From Bacteroidota bacterium (GTDB taxonomy: Bacteria > Bacteroidota > Bacteroidia > 2-12-FULL-35-15), in NCBI GenBank assembly GCA_947449315.1, contig CANFRC010000015.1, positions 1-44,086 on the forward strand: a stretch of DNA of 44,086 nt, written 5' to 3'. The translations under genes were made by a program, and so were the position numbers. The notes under the pieces were generated by a model, which saw only the letters and a list, made by a program, of their open reading frames with translations, was not told the origin of the DNA and made no database searches. Position 1 is the stretch's first letter, and every line of letters starts with the position of its first letter. Positions 2 to 43,469 of the stretch are shown piece after piece.

Positions 2-1147
2 GGTACACCACCTTATACGATTGATTGGTTGCCTGGCGCTCCTGTCGGAGATGGTTCAACAACAATTAGCTCCTTGTGTGCTGGAACGTATACGGTTAAT
101 ATTACCGATTTTAAAGGATGTACTGCAACACAAACAGTGACCATAACAAATCCTGTAGCATTGACCATCAGCACTGTGTCAACATCAGCAAGTTGTAATA
201 CAATTCCTGATGGAGCAATTGATGTCACCGTTGGTGGTGGAACACTTCCATATGCGTATCAATGGAGTGGCGGTTCGGCAGCTACTATAGAAGATTTAGC
301 TGCGATATTAAGTGGATCCTATACGATTACAGTTACCGATTCTAATTCATGTACTATTGCTGATACGATTCTATTACCTGCAAATGCAATAGTAATAGCC
401 GTTGCCGGCAATGATACCAGCTTTTGTCAATCAGAATCATTAACACTGAGTGCGGCCTCAAGTGTGAACGGTTTAAATTATCAGTGGTTTGAAATGCCTG
501 GTAATACAAGTGTCGGCAATACGGATTCTGTTTCGGTGAATCCTCCAACTGGTTTAACCAGTTATTATGTAACGGTGGATAATGGCTCGGGATGTTCCGA
601 TAATGATACGGTTGTTGTTGCATCCAATGCTCTGCCTGTGGTAAGTGCAGGACCTGATGTGATATTATTTGTGGGTACTTCATCACCTATTGGCGGTAGT
701 CCAACAACTACGAGTCCTGGAGCAACCTACCAATGGATGCCAACACCAGGTGCACTCGATAACTCAACAGTTTCTAATCCAACCGCTTCTCCTATAGCAA
801 CAGCAACCTATACGGTAACTGTTACCTCAGCACAGGGCTGTACAGCAAGTGATTCAATGGTCGTAAATGTTAGACCAACCATTGTTTTCCCTGATGGAAT
901 TTCTCCGAATGGTGATGGTGCAAATGATGAATGGATTATTGATGGAATTGAATTATTTCCTGATTGTGTGGTGGAGGTGTATAACCGTTGGGGTGAACTA
1001 TTATTCCAATCAGTCGGATACAAAGAACATTGGAAGGGAATCTTTAAAAATAAACCGTTGCCTGTGGGCACCTATTATTATGTGATCAATCTGAAAGATC
1101 CAATTTTTCCGGATACATACACAGGTCCAATTACCATAATGAGATAG
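2..1147 (+). CDS. T9SS type B (gliding motility-associated C-terminal) surface protein, 5'-truncated
   Basis: The frame is already open at the left edge, so this is the C-terminal ~380 residues of a longer secreted protein. The visible part contains SprB-like beta-sandwich repeats (sequence styles such as GTPPYTIDWLPG, GTYTVNITDFKGCTATQTVT and GSYTITVTDSNSCT) and a PKD/Ig-like segment. The last ~87 residues form a CHU_C / type B sorting domain (SPNGDGANDEW, then VEVYNRWGELLFQ, ending in GPITIMR). Proteins of this kind are exported by the type IX secretion system and displayed on or released from the cell surface, often as adhesins. The stop lies 12 nt before a PorP/SprF gene, the usual partner of type B cargo. 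Any ATG/TTG inside the visible segment is not the true start. The function beyond adhesion-like architecture cannot be told. Confidence 0.93.
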   Translation, partial: GTPPYTIDWLPGAPVGDGSTTISSLCAGTYTVNITDFKGCTATQTVTITNPVALTISTVSTSASCNTIPDGAIDVTVGGGTLPYAYQWSGGSAATIEDLAAILSGSYTITVTDSNSCTIADTILLPANAIVIAVAGNDTSFCQSESLTLSAASSVNGLNYQWFEMPGNTSVGNTDSVSVNPPTGLTSYYVTVDNGSGCSDNDTVVVASNALPVVSAGPDVILFVGTSSPIGGSPTTTSPGATYQWMPTPGALDNSTVSNPTASPIATATYTVTVTSAQGCTASDSMVVNVRPTIVFPDGISPNGDGANDEWIIDGIELFPDCVVEVYNRWGELLFQSVGYKEHWKGIFKNKPLPVGTYYYVINLKDPIFPDTYTGPITIMR

Positions 1148-5807: not shown

Positions 5808-7163
5808 ATGAAAAATATATTCACTCGCTCTCTTATTTCTAGTTGTCTGTTACTTGCATCCTGCGTGCCCAAATTGGATATTCCGGAGCCGAGTGCAGGC
5901 GAGGCAAATTTTTCTAAAACAATTGCTATCGGTGGCGATTTTATGGCGGGCTACCAGGACGATGCCTTGTATTTAAAAGGTCAGCAATATTGTATTCCTG
6001 CTTTGCTTGCCGAACAATTTAAACTCGTAGGCGGAACAGCTTTCGGTCAAGCCTTGATGCCTGATAATAACGGTATAGGATTAAATCCTAAAGTATGGGA
6101 AAGCTGGTTTGTTACACCTGCTCATTTAGGATATAAAACAGATTGTGCCGGAGTTACTTCTTTATTTCCAAATAAAAGCACGATGACTGTTTCTGCAGCG
6201 ACCTCTTATTTAACAGGTGTTGCAGGGAACACCGTTCAGAATATGTCGGTGCCATTTGCAAATACCGCAGATTATTTTAATCCTGCATTTGGAACAGCAT
6301 TTTCTACTACTGGAAATAAAAATCCTTATTACAATCGCTTTGCTAGTTTGCCGGGAACATCCACCCTGTATGAAGATGCAAAACATCAGGATGCTTCTTT
6401 CATAACAGCATGGTTGGGTATGGAAGATATTTTTAATTATGCCAGCTCCGGTGGAACAAGCGCAGCGATTCCTTCTTCAACTACTTTCAGTAATTACTTA
6501 GATACCTTGTTAGGTGGATTAACAGCCAATGGCGCAAAAGGAGTAATCGCCAATATTCCCGACTTCCGAAATTTCCCTTACTATACCTTAGTAGCCTGGG
6601 ACAATGCAGATATAAAACAGACACAAGCTGATTCATTGAATGATATTTATTCAGCAGCAGGAATGCCGCAGATCTTTTTTAAAGAAGGTCGCAATGGCTT
6701 TCTAATCAATGATGCGGCTGCTGTGGGCGGTTTTCGTCAGCTTCACAAAGGAGAATACATCACACTGGGTGTGCCTATCGATTCAATGAAATGCAATAAA
6801 TACGGATTGTTGGTGCAGGTCATCAATAACAGATACGCATTGGATAGTACCGAAGTATTTGCTCTTGATAATGCGATCAGTTCGTACAATGCGGTGATCG
6901 CTCAAAAAGCTGCACAATATAATTTAGCGTTGGTGGATATGCATAGCTTTTTTAATTCGGTAACATCCGGAATTAAATGGAATGGTGTTGACTTCAATGC
7001 AGCATTTATCAGCGGTGGTTTTTTTAGTTTAGATGCGTATCATCCCAACCAAAAAGGATATGCGATCATAGCGAATGAATTTATAAAAGCCATCAATATA
7101 AAATATCATTCATTTGTTCCAACGGTATATTGTACAGCGTGTGATGGTGTGATCTTTCCATAG
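5808..7163 (+). CDS. SGNH/GDSL hydrolase-like lipoprotein with altered nucleophile
   Basis: A 451-residue lipoprotein with a signal peptide and lipobox LLASC (Cys19). After the lipidated Cys the protein follows the Bacteroidota SGNH/GDSL lipoprotein pattern: block I is IAIGGDFMAGYQDDALY at about 40-56, and the C-terminal catalytic block is SLDAYHPNQKGYA (Asp409, His412). In related proteins block I reads like GNSLTAG, with Ser as nucleophile; here the position is Asp44. The Asp/His pair is kept, so the protein may be a non-catalytic binding protein or use different chemistry. A CTAC pair lies near the C terminus. It is the last gene of the mrp operon, 10 nt after the Nfu-type gene, and ends before a bidirectional terminator. 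Confidence 0.85.
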   Translation: MKNIFTRSLISSCLLLASCVPKLDIPEPSAGEANFSKTIAIGGDFMAGYQDDALYLKGQQYCIPALLAEQFKLVGGTAFGQALMPDNNGIGLNPKVWESWFVTPAHLGYKTDCAGVTSLFPNKSTMTVSAATSYLTGVAGNTVQNMSVPFANTADYFNPAFGTAFSTTGNKNPYYNRFASLPGTSTLYEDAKHQDASFITAWLGMEDIFNYASSGGTSAAIPSSTTFSNYLDTLLGGLTANGAKGVIANIPDFRNFPYYTLVAWDNADIKQTQADSLNDIYSAAGMPQIFFKEGRNGFLINDAAAVGGFRQLHKGEYITLGVPIDSMKCNKYGLLVQVINNRYALDSTEVFALDNAISSYNAVIAQKAAQYNLALVDMHSFFNSVTSGIKWNGVDFNAAFISGGFFSLDAYHPNQKGYAIIANEFIKAINIKYHSFVPTVYCTACDGVIFP

Positions 7164-20737: not shown

Positions 20738-22819
20738 TTAAAACAATGTGTTTAAAGATTTTTCTGATTCTCCATCCGCACGCTGTTCATTATCTGCTTT
20801 CTCTTCTTTTGTTTCCGATTTCACTTCTGTTGTTGAAGTAGTATTCGGATCTAATTTGATCAGCAGGTTTTCTTCTTTATCGAATGGACGTTTACCAAAA
20901 ATAATTTCAAGATCTTCCTTAAAGATAACTTCTTTGTCTAATAATTTCTCTGCCAATTGTGTTAAAAGATTTTTATTTTTGGTAAGAATATCCTTAGCTC
21001 GTTTGTAAGCTGTTTCAATTAATTTGCTTACTTCTTCGTCAATTGTCTGTGCTGTTTTTTCACTGTATGGTTTTGTGAATCCATATTCGTTTGCACCGGT
21101 AGAGTCGTAGTAGCTTATGTTACCAATCTTGTCATTTAATCCATAAATGGTAATCATTGCATACGCTTGTTTTGTTACTTTTTCTAAATCGCTTAATGCA
21201 CCTGTAGAAATCTTACCGAACATGATTTCTTCTGCAGCTCTTCCTCCAAGTGTTGCACACATTTCATCCATCAATTGTTCTGTAGTAGTGATCTGACGTT
21301 CTTCCGGCAAATACCATGCAGCACCAAGTGAGCGACCACGAGGAACAATAGTAACTTTGATCAAAGGGTGAGCGTGCTCCAATAACCAACTGGTTGCAGC
21401 ATGTCCAGCTTCATGGTAGGCAATTACTTTTTTCTCTTGAACGGAGATGATTTTATTTTTCTTTTCTAATCCGCCAATGATACGATCAACAGCATCTAGG
21501 AAATCTTGTTTTTCAATTACTGTTTTGTCGTGACGCGCTGCTATCAATGCTGCTTCATTACATATGTTTGCAATGTCAGCGCCAGAGAATCCAGGAGTTT
21601 GTTTAGCTAAAAAATCAACATCAACAGAAGCATCTAACTTTAAAGGTTTTAAATGTACTTTAAAGATGTCTTTTCGTTCATTTAGATCTGGCATGTCCAC
21701 GTATATCTGTCTGTCAAAGCGACCTGCACGCATCAAGGCTCTGTCTAAAATGTCGGCACGGTTTGTTGCTGCTAAAATAATGACACCGCTGTTTGTACCG
21801 AAACCATCCATCTCAGTTAATAACTGATTAAGGGTGTTTTCACGTTCATCATTTCCACCTTGTGCAGGATTTTTTCCTCGGGCGCGCCCGATAGCATCAA
21901 TTTCATCAATAAAGATGATACAGGGAGATTTCTCTTTTGCTTGACGGAATAGATCGCGTACACGGGAAGCACCTACTCCTACAAACATTTCCACGAAATC
22001 CGAACCTGATAGCGAGAAGAATGGAACTTTTGCTTCTCCAGCAACAGCTTTTGCTAAAAGTGTTTTACCGGTCCCCGGAGGTCCAACTAATAATGCACCT
22101 TTTGGAATTTTAGCACCAAGAGCCGTATATTTTTTTGGGTTTTTTAAGAAGTCAACAATCTCTTTAATTTCAATTTTTGCGCCTTCTAAACCAGCAACAT
22201 CATTGAATGTAATATTCACATTTGTGTTTTTATCAAATAAGGTTGCTTTCGATTTTCCGATATTGAAAATTTGTCCGCCACCTGCTCCGCCACCCATTCT
22301 GCGCATGATTATGATCCAGATTACAATCATAAGAACGATTGGTAATATCCAACTTAACGTGTCGCCCCAGTTTTGACGTGTTTCACTAACGGCATCAATT
22401 CGCTCGTTTGGAAGAAAGTCTTTTTGTGCTTCATTTAATCGTGCATTGAAAGAATCAACACTTGAAATTTTTACGCGGTAATGCGGACCATTCTCATGTT
22501 TTTGAAGATTGTCTGCAGTATATTGAGGTAGTTTTAAAAAATCTTTACCGATAGTAATCTCAGCGATATTATCAGAAGGAATAAGCACAATTTTCACAAC
22601 CTGATGTTGCTTTAGCATTGTTTCGATGAATTCCGTAGTTGTTTTTTCTTTTAAACTGGAACCCATGCTATTCATCATTTGCATCGCAATTAATCCAACT
22701 GCAATGATACCATAGATCCAATAAAAATTAAATGGACTTTTGGGCATGTTCGGTTTTTTAGGAAATTTATTATTCTTCGGTGAAGAATTATTGTCCTGTG
22801 GTGTTTCTTGCTCGCTCAT
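20738..22819 (-). CDS. ftsH: ATP-dependent zinc metalloprotease FtsH
   Basis: A 693-residue membrane-bound AAA+ protease for quality control of membrane and short-lived cytoplasmic proteins. Two transmembrane helices (about 32-50 and 155-172) flank a periplasmic domain. The AAA domain has Walker A GPPGTGKT (246-253), Walker B IIFIDEID (302-309) and the second region of homology [19 protein letters not shown]. The protease domain carries the zinc site HEAGH (469-473). A low-complexity acidic tail follows about residue 650. It starts 17 nt after the rsfS stop and is probably co-transcribed with it. Confidence 0.98.
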
Positions 22820-22836: not shown

Positions 22837-23466
22837 TTATTTGTCAAAGGCTATTTCCGTAACTTCAGCATCAGCCCATAACGATTCTAAGTTATAAAAA
22901 TTACGTATTTGTGTTTGGAAAATATGTACTACAACGGTAACGTAATCAACCAGGATCCATTCTGAATTTTCAAATCCTTCTTTTCTATATGGTCGCTCAC
23001 CGGTAAGTTTTTTCACCATTTCTTCAACAGAGCCAGCAATAGCATTTACTTGAGTGTTAGAATCTGCTTGGCAAATGATGAAATAATCACAAACCCGATT
23101 GTGTATTCCTCTAAGATCTAGCACAGAAATATTTCGGCCTTTTACTTCCAAGATTCCTTCCACAATTGAATCTGCAAGAATCTGCGTTTCATCTTTAATT
23201 ACTTTTGGAGTAATTTTTCCTACAGCTTTATTTGGTTTAGCAACTTGTTTTTTTGCTGCTGCCGCTTTTTTAGGAGCCGCTTTCTTTTTTACGGGTGCTG
23301 TCTTTTTAGCAACGGGTGTTTTTTTTGTTGCTGTCTTTACAGTTGCTAGAGCTGTTTTAGCCTTAGTTTTTGCAGTTTTTGGAGCTGTTTTCTTTGTTTC
23401 TTTCCCGCTTTTTGTAGGTGTTTTTGCTGCTGTTTTCTTTACAGGAGCTGCTTTCTTTTTAGCCAT
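22837..23466 (-). CDS. rsfS: Ribosome silencing factor RsfS with a Lys/Ala-rich N-terminal tail
   Basis: A 209-residue protein in two parts. Residues about 92-209 are a complete RsfS/DUF143 domain (LDLRGIHNRVCDYFIICQAD, then YRKEGFENSEWILVDYVTVVVHIF); this domain binds ribosomal protein uL14 and blocks subunit joining when nutrients are short. Residues 1-90 are an unusual low-complexity tail made almost only of Lys, Ala, Pro, Thr and Val (starting MAKKKAAPVKKTAAKTPTK), like histone H1 or AlgP-type tails. The usual length of RsfS is about 105-130. There is no internal Met between residue 1 and the domain, so the tail is most likely translated. The tail may bind rRNA or DNA. It is the first gene of the rsfS-ftsH unit and divergent from birA. 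Confidence 0.94.
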   Translation of the reverse strand: MAKKKAAPVKKTAAKTPTKSGKETKKTAPKTAKTKAKTALATVKTATKKTPVAKKTAPVKKKAAPKKAAAAKKQVAKPNKAVGKITPKVIKDETQILADSIVEGILEVKGRNISVLDLRGIHNRVCDYFIICQADSNTQVNAIAGSVEEMVKKLTGERPYRKEGFENSEWILVDYVTVVVHIFQTQIRNFYNLESLWADAEVTEIAFDK

Positions 23467-23554: not shown

Positions 23555-24316
23555 ATGAAAACATTATTTGTAGGGCAAAATAGCATTCATTTAAAGTCGG
23601 TTGATTCTACCAACAGTTATGCCATTGAATTGTTGCGACAAATTAAAGTTTCTGAGGGGACCATTATTTACACCTTTGATCAGGAAAAAGGCCGAGGGCA
23701 ACGTGGTAACCGTTGGGAGAGCGAACCCAATAAAAACGTAGCTTTGAGTCTTATTCTATACCCCACTTTTTTGAATGCTGAAAAGCAATTTTTGCTCACT
23801 AAAATGTGCTCCGTTGCGCTTTCTGACTTAATGGCAGAATTGGTTGGCTTTACCGACAAACCACAACAAATTAGCATAAAATGGCCGAATGATATTTATG
23901 TGAACGATAAAAAAATTGCAGGAATACTGATCGAAAACAATTTAAGGGATAATACGATCCAATCAACAGTTATTGGAGTCGGACTAAATGTAAATCAGCT
24001 GAAATTCTATTCAACAAAAAATGCAACATCTTTGAAGCAGATTGCTGACTCAGCGTTTGACTTAATGCAAGTGCTTGAGCGTTTATGTAAATTTATGGAA
24101 GCCAGATACCTTCAATTGAAAGGCAGTAAATTTGAACAAATTGATTCCGATTATTTTGATCGACTTTACAGGTTGAATTTTTGGGCTATGTACAGGTCTA
24201 ATGAGTTGTTGTTCGAGGGTAAAATTATTGGCGTTTCAGCGGCAGGGAAATTACGAATCGAATTAAGGACGGGTGAAGTCAAAGCGTTTGATCTGAAAGA
24301 GATTACGTTTATTTAA
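23555..24316 (+). CDS. birA: Biotin--[acetyl-CoA-carboxylase] ligase
   Basis: A 253-residue biotin protein ligase that activates biotin with ATP and attaches it to the carboxyl-carrier protein of acetyl-CoA carboxylase. The catalytic loop GRGQRGNRW is present (about residues 47-55), with STNSYA before it and IKWPNDIYVNDKKIAGILIE after. There is no N-terminal winged helix, so it is the monofunctional form and not a repressor. It is divergent from rsfS, and its 3' end overlaps the convergent SRPBCC gene by 8 nt. Confidence 0.96.
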   Translation: MKTLFVGQNSIHLKSVDSTNSYAIELLRQIKVSEGTIIYTFDQEKGRGQRGNRWESEPNKNVALSLILYPTFLNAEKQFLLTKMCSVALSDLMAELVGFTDKPQQISIKWPNDIYVNDKKIAGILIENNLRDNTIQSTVIGVGLNVNQLKFYSTKNATSLKQIADSAFDLMQVLERLCKFMEARYLQLKGSKFEQIDSDYFDRLYRLNFWAMYRSNELLFEGKIIGVSAAGKLRIELRTGEVKAFDLKEITFI

Positions 24317-38882: not shown

Positions 38883-41800
38883 CTATTTTACAATAGTTAC
38901 TGTTCCTATGTAATTGTGTTTTTTATCGAATACATCGGTCAATTTCACTTTCCATACATAAACATCTATTTCTGCGACATCACTTCCATGATTCGCTTTT
39001 CCATCCCAACCGTTATTGATATCGTCAGCGTTGAAAATTAAATTACCCCAACGGTCGAAAATAAATAGTTCATATTTCTTGATGCCCACGCCCTTCCCAA
39101 AGAAAAGATCATTGACTCCATCGCCGTTAGGTGAAAATGCATTTGGAATATAAAAGGAGAATTGAGGGTCAATAATAATAGTATGTGTTACGGAGGAAAC
39201 GCAGCCAAAAATATTATGCACAGTTAACACTGCATTGTAATTTGATGCAAAATCATTCGGATAGGAATGGGTTGGATCAGAAGTGGTATATCCCAATGAA
39301 TCACCATCACCAAAACTCCAGAACCAATAATTGACATCTGAAGAAGATTGGTTGTTAAAAGTGACAACAGGATCCACCACAGAAGCAGGGTTAGGAGTTG
39401 CGCTAAATTCTGCAATAGGATCGGGGTTGACAGTAATGTAATTTGGAATGGTTAAAGTTGCTGTACATCCGGCAGATGAAACAACAGTTAATCCAACATT
39501 ATAACTTGTAGGTAAACTATAGCAATGGTAATGAGCGGTATCGTTTGGCGTTCCATCACCATAGTTGAATAACCAAGAAGCAATAGTGCCACCCGCAACA
39601 GTTGAATTATTTGTAAATGTCACACACAATGGAGAACAACCTGAAGTGAGATCTGCAACAAAAGCAGCAACGGGTAATGGTTGAACCGTTACAGTTACTG
39701 TAGCTGTTACAGCTGGAGAGCAGCCGTCATTAGCTGTTACAGTATACGTTGTAGTTACAGCTGGTGAAGCAGATGGATTGGAAATAGCAGCATTGCTTAA
39801 ACCGATTGCTGGTGACCATGAATACGTATAAGGTCCACCATTTCCTAAGGAAGCAGTCGAAGTTATTGGAGTTGATCCACCTGGACATATTGTTGTTGAA
39901 CCAGCAGCTACCAAAGCAAGTGGAGGATAAATAGTAACGGTAACATTTACTGGGGCTGCAGGGCAACCATTCGCATCAGTAGCGTTAACAGTATACACAG
40001 TAGTGGCAGCTGGAGTTGCTGTTGGGTTTGCAACATTTGTAGCACTTAATCCGGTTGCTGGTGACCATGTATAAACATACGCCCCTCCATTTCCACCTGA
40101 AGCATTAGCCGTGATCGTTGTGCTAGCGCCAATACAAATGGATGGAGAAACGATCGGAGCAATTACAACTATGGTCGGTTCTGTGATTACAGCAACTGCT
40201 GTTGATGTACAAGCATTTGCATCTGTGACAGTGCATGTATACGATCCAGCACATAATCCTGTTGCTGTTGCTGTTGTTTGAACAGGAGTTGTGTTCCATG
40301 AATAGGTATATCCCCCAACAACAGTTCCGCCAGAACCTGCAGCTGTTGCTGTTCCATCGCAAATGCCATGGCAACTCGCAGGGGTTGTTGCTGTAATTGA
40401 ATTCGTTAATAAAGTAGGCTGACCAACTGTTGCGCTTCCTGTTGCAGTACATCCCCAAGAGTCGGAAACAGTAACTGTATAAGTGCCAGCGCAAGCAGCA
40501 GTGCAAGCAGCACTTGTACATCCTCCTGTCCAGTTATACGTAAATCCGGGCGTTCCTCCAGTTGGAATAACAATCGTTTGGCCATTACATGATCCAAAAC
40601 AACTCGCATCAATACCTGCAAGGGCCAATGTTATTTGAGGATCAGCATAAATTTTAACACTGTCTGTTCCCACACATCCTCCCGGATCCGTTACAGTCAA
40701 AGTATAGGTGGTGGTAGTGGTAGGACTTGCAACAGGATTGAATATGCTAGCACTGCTCAATGTTCCTGCAGGTGACCATAGATAGGAATAACCTACTCCA
40801 TTCGGAATTACACTCAAATTTGCAGTCGCCCCGAAACAAACAGTGTCGTCAAGCCCAGCATTCACCGTTAATGCAGAAGTAACAGTTACGGTTACAGGTG
40901 TGAAAGGTCCGGTGCATCCTAATAATGTTGTTTGCACATAATAGGTAGTAGAAGTCGTTAATAGGGGTGTTGTATAACTTGCATTTGTAACAAGTAAAGT
41001 TCCTGCTACAGGTGCACTGTACCAATCATATGTTCCACCCGGAGCCGTTGCGGTTAATGTTGCACTATTGTTTGTACAGATAGTAGCTCCCAAAGCTGTT
41101 GGAGCAACAGGTGTCGGATTAATTGTAATGGTATACGTGCTTGGTGTTCCCGGACAACCAGCTACTGTTGGGGTTACCGTTATTGTAGCAGTAATTGCTG
41201 CGGTAGTAAGATTTGTTCCTGTGAATGCAGGGACGTTCCCCGTTCCATTGGCAGCAAGGCCGATAGCCGTATTGGAGTTGGTCCATGCGAATGTTCCTCC
41301 TGCAGGTGTGCTTACAAACGCAGCAGCAGGAATTGCTGTACCATTACATACGGTAATGTTTGCAGGGACTGTTACTGTTGGAGTAGGGTTAACTGTTATT
41401 GTATAGGTGTTTGGTGTTCCCGGACATCCTGCTACGGTGGGTGTAACAGTTATTGTTCCTGTGATGGCAGCGCTTGTTAAATTGGTTGCGGTAAATACTG
41501 GCACATTCCCTGTTCCGCTTGCAGCAAGGCCAATAGCCGTATTGGAGTTGGTCCATGCGAATGTTCCTCCTGCGGGTGTACTCACAAATGTTGAAGCAGA
41601 AACACTTCCTCCATTACATACGGTAATGTTTGCAGGCACAGTAACCGTTGGAGTAGGATTAACTGTTATTGTATAGGTGCTTGGCGTTCCGGGACATCCG
41701 GCCAAAGTAGGTGTAACTGTTATTGTTCCCGAAATGGCAGCTGTAGTTCCATTGGTTGCAGTAAAGGAGGGTATATTTCCTGTTCCTGATGCACCAATTC

Positions 41801-43469
41801 CAATTGCTGTATTTGAATTCGACCAAGCAAATGTTGCTCCTGCAGGTGTACTCGTGAAAGTGGTTGCAGGTACTGTTCCTCCATTACAAACCGTAATGGC
41901 TGGTGGAACTGTTACTGTTGGTATAGGGTTAATTACAACTGTTACTGTTGAAGAAGATGTGCAACCACCTGAAGTAGCAATTACAGTATATGTTCCAGCA
42001 GCAGCTGCTGTAACGCCTGTTATACTTGGGTTTTGAGTTGGTGAGGTGTATGCACTCGGACCTGTCCAAGCGTATGTAGCTCCTGAAACAGTTGCTGCTG
42101 TTAAGTTTAAGGTTCCTCCCACACAAATCGGACTGTTACTTCCCGCTGTTGGTGTTCCAATCGAACTACCTCCCACCACAACAGTGTTTGTAATCATGCA
42201 ATTAAATGCGTTAGTCAATTCTACCGTATACGTTCCCGGTGCTAAACCTGTTGCTGTATTAGCACCCGCTACTCCTGTAGAGGTTGATACAACAGTTCCT
42301 GCTGCGTTTGTCCAAACATAGGTGTATGGTCCTGATGATCCGATTGGTGTTGCGGTAGCTGATCCTGTGATTCCCGAACATCCTGAAGGTGTTGATGTCA
42401 TGGTCGGCGGACAACAACTTCCTACCGCAGGTAATATTGTTGCAGGGTCACCTGCACAACCAATACTCGACCAAGAACCTGTTTCTCCATCTCCGCTCGT
42501 ATTAATTGTTACATCAAGGTTTGAGCCTGGACTGCAACCAGCGGCCACGGTTATTGTAAAACAAAAATTCCATGTTCCTGCGCCTAATGCCCCTGAACAA
42601 TTGTCACCAAAATTATCTCCAGGGTTTGTTCCTGCATCCGGTGTGTCAAAATAAAATCCTGGTCCAAAGTGCACACCTGTTGCACTTGATGTACAACCTG
42701 CCGGATAATATGCCCATGTTCCACCTACAGGTGTTGTTTGACATGCTGGCGGAGGTGTTGTTGTTAACGAAGCTAAATTCCATCCTGATCCAAAAGTCAA
42801 TTGAACGCCATGCAACCAATTTGTATTTACCTGAGAATAATTAGACACGTGATAACAAAAACTAACAACTTGTCCTGGATCATACATTCCATTAACAGGG
42901 AGTGGTGTCACAGTAGCTGTCGATCCTATCAAACAATTGTTACAATCCTGGTTATTATGAATGGCCATGTTGAATGTCCCTGTTTGTCCTGTATTTCCGC
43001 TTACTTGAAGATAATAGGTGGTTCCAATAACCATTTGGTCTACTGTCAGTGTAACTGTTCCCCCTGTCCCCACAGCGCAACCGCCAACACCGCCACCTAA
43101 AGCAGCACATGTTCCTGAATACATTGCTACATTGGGATTGGCGAATGTACTGTTGATAGTAATTACTGCTTGGTAACTACTTGCTGTGAACATATACCAA
43201 ACATCATTGGCAGGAACGCCCATTGAGGGCCCACCAGCTCCGCTACATCCTGGCTGATAAACATACGGACTAGCAGGTGTTGCACCTACCAAAGTTCCAG
43301 CGATATTAACATTCGCACCTACCTGTAATGTTCCTGCACCAGTGCAGGCTGCAGGCGCAGGAAGTGTTCCAATATTCTGAGCGGTAGTACAATCATCATT
43401 AGCAGGCTGAGCAAATGCTTGCTTGCTAATTAAGCTTATGATTGCGGTTAGTAATAGGAGTTTTTTCAT
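38883..43469 (-). CDS. Giant modular PKD/SprB-like surface protein with T9SS type B signal
   Basis: A 1528-residue secreted protein. In order: signal peptide (1-20); a PPC-like beta-sandwich (about 22-170, with NDVWYMFTASSYQAVITIN); a Cys-containing domain (about 175-355); an SprB-like repeat; an Ig-like domain; three near-identical 90-residue repeats (about 508-778; each with VTVPANITVCNG and AGGTFAWTNSNTAIG); another Ig-like and several SprB-like repeats (TYTVTVSDSWGCTATG type); two PKD domains (about 1255-1435; WLFNYGDGTPND and WFWSFGDGDS); and a type B sorting domain (1437-1528; SPNGDGVNDLFF, FDRWGNLIFN, ending GTVTIVK). It is a probable adhesin. No PorP/SprF gene is adjacent; a small unknown secreted protein is encoded 26 nt upstream. 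The gene is visibly more GC-rich than its neighbours. Confidence 0.94.
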   Translation of the reverse strand: MKKLLLLTAIISLISKQAFAQPANDDCTTAQNIGTLPAPAACTGAGTLQVGANVNIAGTLVGATPASPYVYQPGCSGAGGPSMGVPANDVWYMFTASSYQAVITINSTFANPNVAMYSGTCAALGGGVGGCAVGTGGTVTLTVDQMVIGTTYYLQVSGNTGQTGTFNMAIHNNQDCNNCLIGSTATVTPLPVNGMYDPGQVVSFCYHVSNYSQVNTNWLHGVQLTFGSGWNLASLTTTPPPACQTTPVGGTWAYYPAGCTSSATGVHFGPGFYFDTPDAGTNPGDNFGDNCSGALGAGTWNFCFTITVAAGCSPGSNLDVTINTSGDGETGSWSSIGCAGDPATILPAVGSCCPPTMTSTPSGCSGITGSATATPIGSSGPYTYVWTNAAGTVVSTSTGVAGANTATGLAPGTYTVELTNAFNCMITNTVVVGGSSIGTPTAGSNSPICVGGTLNLTAATVSGATYAWTGPSAYTSPTQNPSITGVTAAAAGTYTVIATSGGCTSSSTVTVVINPIPTVTVPPAITVCNGGTVPATTFTSTPAGATFAWSNSNTAIGIGASGTGNIPSFTATNGTTAAISGTITVTPTLAGCPGTPSTYTITVNPTPTVTVPANITVCNGGSVSASTFVSTPAGGTFAWTNSNTAIGLAASGTGNVPVFTATNLTSAAITGTITVTPTVAGCPGTPNTYTITVNPTPTVTVPANITVCNGTAIPAAAFVSTPAGGTFAWTNSNTAIGLAANGTGNVPAFTGTNLTTAAITATITVTPTVAGCPGTPSTYTITINPTPVAPTALGATICTNNSATLTATAPGGTYDWYSAPVAGTLLVTNASYTTPLLTTSTTYYVQTTLLGCTGPFTPVTVTVTSALTVNAGLDDTVCFGATANLSVIPNGVGYSYLWSPAGTLSSASIFNPVASPTTTTTYTLTVTDPGGCVGTDSVKIYADPQITLALAGIDASCFGSCNGQTIVIPTGGTPGFTYNWTGGCTSAACTAACAGTYTVTVSDSWGCTATGSATVGQPTLLTNSITATTPASCHGICDGTATAAGSGGTVVGGYTYSWNTTPVQTTATATGLCAGSYTCTVTDANACTSTAVAVITEPTIVVIAPIVSPSICIGASTTITANASGGNGGAYVYTWSPATGLSATNVANPTATPAATTVYTVNATDANGCPAAPVNVTVTIYPPLALVAAGSTTICPGGSTPITSTASLGNGGPYTYSWSPAIGLSNAAISNPSASPAVTTTYTVTANDGCSPAVTATVTVTVQPLPVAAFVADLTSGCSPLCVTFTNNSTVAGGTIASWLFNYGDGTPNDTAHYHCYSLPTSYNVGLTVVSSAGCTATLTIPNYITVNPDPIAEFSATPNPASVVDPVVTFNNQSSSDVNYWFWSFGDGDSLGYTTSDPTHSYPNDFASNYNAVLTVHNIFGCVSSVTHTIIIDPQFSFYIPNAFSPNGDGVNDLFFGKGVGIKKYELFIFDRWGNLIFNADDINNGWDGKANHGSDVAEIDVYVWKVKLTDVFDKKHNYIGTVTIVK
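41137..41946 (-). repeat. Three 270-bp tandem repeats inside the giant surface-protein gene
   Basis: Units at about 41137-41406, 41407-41676 and 41677-41946 each encode one 90-residue repeat. The first two are closest: 41251-41303 and 41521-41573 differ at one base in 53. The third unit is more diverged. Near-identity at DNA level points to recent duplication or gene conversion. Confidence 0.85.

Follow-up and report, generated by a model that had tools for sequence, protein, structure and literature searches.

The ribosome silencing factor RsfS encoded in the 44,086-nt stretch of Bacteroidota DNA analyzed here (contig CANFRC010000015.1 of assembly GCA_947449315.1, hereafter the window) carries a long lysine-rich tail ahead of an otherwise ordinary RsfS domain, and, judging from the related loci compared, this tailed form is a lineage-wide and recurrent elaboration of a known protein and not a one-off fusion. 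RsfS, which occurs very widely among bacteria, docks on uL14 and acts on the 50S subunit as an anti-association and late-assembly factor.

The rsfS gene (22837..23466, reverse strand, with its ATG at 23466) encodes a protein of 209 amino acids, which is the single RsfS of the 2.61-Mb genome; a second, tail-less RsfS was sought in the same genome and not found. The RsfS domain occupies residues 93–209 (22840..23190, reverse strand). An hmmscan search of Pfam-A assigned residues 100–197 to PF02410 (E 2.4e-31), covering positions 2–98 of the 98 in the model at 108.3 bits against a cut-off of 21.6, and TIGR00090 matched residues 98–197 over model positions 2–99 of 99 (109.6 bits against a cut-off of 56.9), so that both family models were matched over their full length and above their curated cut-offs. 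The four residues of Staphylococcus aureus RsfS reported in PMC9503621 to touch uL14 (E70, W77, D81, and Y98) align with E163, W170, D174, and Y191 of the window protein, the first three being invariant and the last at least 90% conserved in an alignment of 46 sequences. Residues 91–200 were modeled by AlphaFold with pLDDT values of 90–98, and the best Foldseek match of the model was chain 9 of 6sj6, the S. aureus 50S-RsfS complex (E 3.4e-11, TM 0.89 by target length), placing the domain in the fold of 50S-bound RsfS. Because the domain is complete, the 50S-bound fold is matched, and the uL14-contact residues are kept, we judge the head to be an ordinary and probably working RsfS, the working state being predicted from sequence and model. 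Among plasmid records, 51 had RsfS-like matches, none of which covered 80% of the query.

Downstream of rsfS lies ftsH (20738..22819, reverse strand; PF01434 plus an AAA domain), which adjoins rsfS in 29 of the 30 genus loci examined, the exception being a locus of 1,925 bases, and the divergent neighbor is a birA-like biotin/lipoate protein ligase gene (23555..24316, forward strand; PF03099), which adjoins rsfS in all 30. Elsewhere in the window, the open reading frame list includes large repetitive proteins rich in Thr, Ser, Val, and Gly at 38883–43469 (reverse strand) and 29–1147 (forward strand), whose C-terminal ends we take to be of a gliding or secretion type.

The tail comprises residues 1–92 (23191..23466, reverse strand) and has a net charge of +29, with 31 Lys or Arg against 2 Asp or Glu residues and 89% of its positions occupied by Lys, Ala, Pro, Val, Thr, or Ser. 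AlphaFold, run on the 46-sequence alignment, gave residues 1–80 pLDDT values of 50–57 and placed no secondary structure before residue 93; together with the composition and the lysine retention described below, this marks the tail as a predicted disordered, Lys/Ala/Pro-rich, and strongly cationic segment. The first-pass annotation had thus placed the reading frame correctly and had rightly described a complete RsfS behind ∼90 residues of mostly Lys, Ala, Pro, Thr, and Val. Its further description of the tail as histone-H1-like stands for composition only and fails as a statement of homology to histone H1 or Hc1: the full protein matched only RsfS in Pfam-A at E ≤ 1, and the tail alone had no match in the PDB at the same threshold. 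"H1-like" is therefore a description of composition and not of family membership. Fusion to a known histone-like gene was likewise rejected, given a tail with no Pfam or PDB match.

On codon evidence, the tail is translated from its ATG, because no in-frame ATG, GTG, or TTG lies between codons 1 and 102. The tail lacks internal ATG codons, an in-frame GTG first occurs at codon 102, already inside the domain, no TTG comes earlier, and the start codon is immediately preceded by an in-frame TAA, all of which bears out the earlier remark that a tail with no internal Met should be translated. An in-frame stop also lies 0–38 codons (mostly 0–6) upstream of the ATG in all 32 RsfS genes of the genus. 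For the reading that the tail is untranslated and that a codon other than ATG around residue 90 serves as the start, which the same annotation had allowed, we found nothing in favor: the window gene has no alternative start before the domain, four genus relatives (L031, L040, L043, and L046) have none up to approximately domain position 10, and the tail is constrained at the level of its codons. We regard a start of this kind as hardly credible.

RsfS was found in 32 of the 36 genomes in the pool that served for the genus, family, and order searches alike (the other four gave no RsfS match), and every one of the 32 has the tail, with lengths of 54–109 residues and net charges of +16 to +35; therefore, the tail in the window is not a chance occurrence. 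The statement that the usual protein lacks a tail of this type is consequently true of RsfS from outside the tailed lineages and untrue within this one, and tails on most RsfS of the order, which the annotation had said would reduce the case to known variation, are what the pool contains, pointing to lineage-wide variation.

In a survey of the class, 380 of 395 genomes had an RsfS match. Frame lengths beyond the genus come from 150 listed and 80 chosen entries, with 136 matched genomes outside the genus having no listed length. Outside the genus we examined 118 loci from 57 other Bacteroidia families, a choice biased toward long frames and toward families already seen to be tailed, so the 32 N-terminal and seven C-terminal tails among them do not represent a frequency. 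N-terminal basic tails of at least 30 residues occurred in eight of the 57 families (f11, f12, f14, f22, f29, f37, f41, and f71) and C-terminal basic tails in two (f16 and f55). For these family counts, one locus (L147) was recoded from an N- to a C-terminal tail and another (L190) from an N-terminal tail to none, an upstream open frame having been taken as a tail; L097, with ∼37 basic residues that lack an in-frame ATG, L135, with a C-terminal stretch of ∼24 residues, and L050, with 24 residues, were left out. The longest RsfS tail reached 246 residues (L063). Family f16 had a C-terminal tail of about 30–61 residues at each of the six loci examined (L068, L087, L088, L089, L134, and L147), and an alphaproteobacterial metagenome-assembled genome encodes an RsfS with a 58-residue Lys/Ala/Thr tail (L018:2815-3318, forward strand). 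Many other Bacteroidia RsfS open with no more than a short basic stub (about 8–10 residues, e.g., MAKKKK).

A unique fusion, as implied by the first-pass annotation, is excluded by the presence of the tail on all genus RsfS and its recurrence in other families, and similar tails also occur on at least six other identified proteins of the same genome (see below). How often the tail arose is a separate matter. A tree of the RsfS domain built from 94 rows and 112 columns left 47 of its 90 inner branches unresolved; labeling rows as N-tailed, C-tailed, or tail-less required at least 11 changes, starred branches alone force only one per label, and the grouping of family f41 with the window's genus stands at only 81. 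Such a tree lacks the length to count how many times tails were gained independently.

Comparison of close relatives indicates that purifying selection preserves the lysines of the tail, and with them its positive charge; the spacers shift from one small residue to another, and the length varies. Five of the seven pairs tested needed gaps, and the retention of lysines rests on the two that aligned gap-free, L035/L037 and L021/L028. In these, dN/dS of the tail was 0.18 and 0.53, respectively, against about 0.02 in the domain. All tail lysines were kept (31/31 and 26/26, or 57/57 in total), whereas 13 of 60 and 22 of 55 other residues, in total 35 of 115, had changed (Fisher p 1.2e-7), nearly always among Ala, Thr, Val, Pro, Ser, and Ile. 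Over all seven pairs, including the five gapped ones, 34 of 215 lysine positions had changed vs. 158 of 352 others. As an internal guard against mutation bias, we compared positions within the same lysine codons: AAA/AAG third-position differences were present at 5 of the 57 kept codons and first- or second-position differences at 0 of 114 (p 0.004), although AT-biased mutation could in part spare AAA codons. Acidic residues made up 3.9% of the residues at changed tail positions, compared with the 12.3% expected from neutral single mutations.

These data bear on two readings in which the peptide itself matters little. Low-complexity drift, by which a slippage-prone Lys/Ala repeat grew from a basic stub with little function, would fit the freely varying length and order of the tail, the MAKKKK-type stubs common in other families, and the Lys/Ala tails on unrelated proteins, but it should not have spared every lysine in the gap-free pairs, held dN/dS below 1, or kept acidic residues so far below expectation, nor would one expect the absence of any loss among the 32 species with an RsfS; we consider it distinctly unlikely. 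Alternatively, what matters could be translation of the gene's 5′ end, where A-rich lysine codons would act through slow poly-lysine decoding or the initiation context, with the peptide as a by-product. The lysine codons of the window gene, which follow straight after the start, are indeed mostly AAA (24 AAA and 7 AAG), yet lysine is kept as an amino acid while AAA and AAG interchange, and the basic tails of two families are C-terminal, where they are unable to affect initiation, making such an effect highly improbable.

Similar tails were found on other proteins of the same genome. A DNA pattern for Lys-Lys spacing gave 100 hits there compared with 102 in a reversed control, and for this reason only clusters of hits, chosen by eye, were used. 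The clusters fell at eight loci, one of them rsfS itself and the others encoding bTHX, a START-like protein, a DksA-like protein, adenylate kinase, a 44-residue Lys/Ala protein, topoisomerase I, and bL21. Position 6971–7039 of contig C6 was a two-hit spot of the pattern, and a further locus with two overlapping hits (L127) had no such tail. As a protein query, the RsfS tail recovered only its own locus in the genome, perhaps owing to its low complexity. The adenylate kinase, encoded beside obgE (L123:1180-2190, forward strand, contig C6), has a Lys/Ala/Val-rich C-terminal tail of about 149 residues; the DksA/TraR-like zinc-finger protein (L122:1654-2667, forward strand, contig C4) has a Lys/Ala/Pro-rich N-terminal tail of about 170 residues; and the START-like protein (PF19569; L121:1013-2152, reverse strand, contig C1) has an N-terminal extension of about 250 residues that is largely lysine-rich. 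The stand-alone 44-residue protein (L124:1947-2078, reverse strand, contig C8) consists almost only of Lys, Ala, and Pro, had no match in Pfam or NCBIfam, and resembles the RsfS tail in composition only.

The recurrence of such tails on seven other products, adenylate kinase among them, raises the possibility that they form a general nucleic-acid or nucleoid tether, or a condensate driver, that concentrates RsfS near DNA or nascent ribosomes with no particular rRNA site. Adenylate kinase is not a known nucleic-acid binder, and the tails may therefore have a more general role. However, a tail of 104–258 residues was present on adenylate kinase at only 16 of the 30 genus loci examined (among them L161, with an incomplete C-terminus), most of the others ending normally. 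Retention of the RsfS tail (32 of 32) is far stricter, and this difference suggests a need particular to RsfS. Moreover, two of the tailed proteins, bTHX and bL21, belong to the ribosome, which leaves rRNA as the simplest target for the tails to share. Foremost among the rivals to rRNA tethering is a nucleoid or condensate role, which the first-pass annotation had also suggested and which is in our estimation possible, if on the doubtful side; the retention of lysines makes a neutral repeat less likely.

With moderate confidence, and by analogy, we propose instead that the disordered polycationic tail slows the dissociation of RsfS from the 50S or pre-50S subunit by binding rRNA, a plausible form of the rRNA tether that the first-pass annotation had suggested. 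An ordinary RsfS would have gained the tail most likely through expansion of the short basic MAKKKK-type stub seen on many Bacteroidia RsfS, and the tail would work by charge and not by sequence. According to PMC7125091, S. aureus RsfS touches bL19 and 23S rRNA beside uL14, and the head of the tailed protein would likewise sit on uL14, with bL19 and helix H95 as neighbors and the tail lying along the nearby 23S rRNA. Release from the 50S subunit or its precursor would then be slowed much as lysine repeats slow that of actinobacterial topoisomerase I (TopA) from DNA, and it is because of this analogy that we take rRNA to be the target. According to PMC7398561, TopA without these repeats retains high-affinity DNA binding but dissociates more easily. 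The proposal accords with an intact head, a translated tail, selected lysines, the presence of the tail on all 32 genus RsfS, and the occurrence elsewhere of basic tails at one or the other RsfS terminus; the variation in length within the genus and the similar tail on adenylate kinase speak against it.

A broader scenario can be drawn only tentatively, and we think it unlikely to hold in full: across Bacteroidota, RsfS may have repeatedly acquired an RNA tether selected for its charge (N-terminal in eight other sampled families, C-terminal in two), and the cationic tails shared in this lineage would bring ribosomal proteins, transcription and topology factors, and the energy enzyme adenylate kinase to one RNA- or nucleoid-rich compartment. 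The occurrence of tails at either end of RsfS and on other proteins of the same genome points to a little-studied charge-based tethering in Bacteroidota. The 50S binding mode of RsfS is known only from short forms; the tailed protein would also make it possible to test directly whether silencing is limited by residence time on the 50S and not by affinity at the uL14 interface.

No description of RsfS tails turned up in searches of open-licence PubMed Central full text or in passages of PMC7125091, PMC9503621, and PMC13246957. The NCBIfam model for RsfS, TIGR00090, spans the domain only, whereas two models for other proteins, NF010381 (PRK13808; adenylate kinase) and NF008916 (PRK12278; bL21), run through similar long C-terminal extensions. 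The tailed adenylate kinase and bL21 of the present genome matched these over positions 3–336 and 1–152, respectively, both below the model cut-offs.

Compared with S. aureus RsfS (6sj6) and the YbeB/iojap proteins, the window RsfS shares the complete domain, the fold, and the Glu, Trp, Asp, and Tyr residues that contact uL14, but differs from the solved bacterial RsfS chains that it matched, all of 105–152 residues, in its 92-residue polycationic N-terminal tail; the match to one of these (28ye_G, 152 residues) begins at residue 65 of the window protein. MALSU1, the mitochondrial homologue (5ool, 7o9k), matches in fold and likewise has its RsfS domain behind a long N-terminal segment, with the domain at residues 97–195 of a 234-residue chain that is found on large-subunit assembly intermediates. 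The N-terminal segment of MALSU1 includes a mitochondrial targeting part. The closest parallels to the tail itself are actinobacterial TopA and HupB, which have in common with the window RsfS an H1-like lysine-rich tail on a nucleic-acid-associated protein, but which differ in the head protein, in their target (DNA as opposed to the presumed rRNA), and in being found mainly in Actinobacteria.
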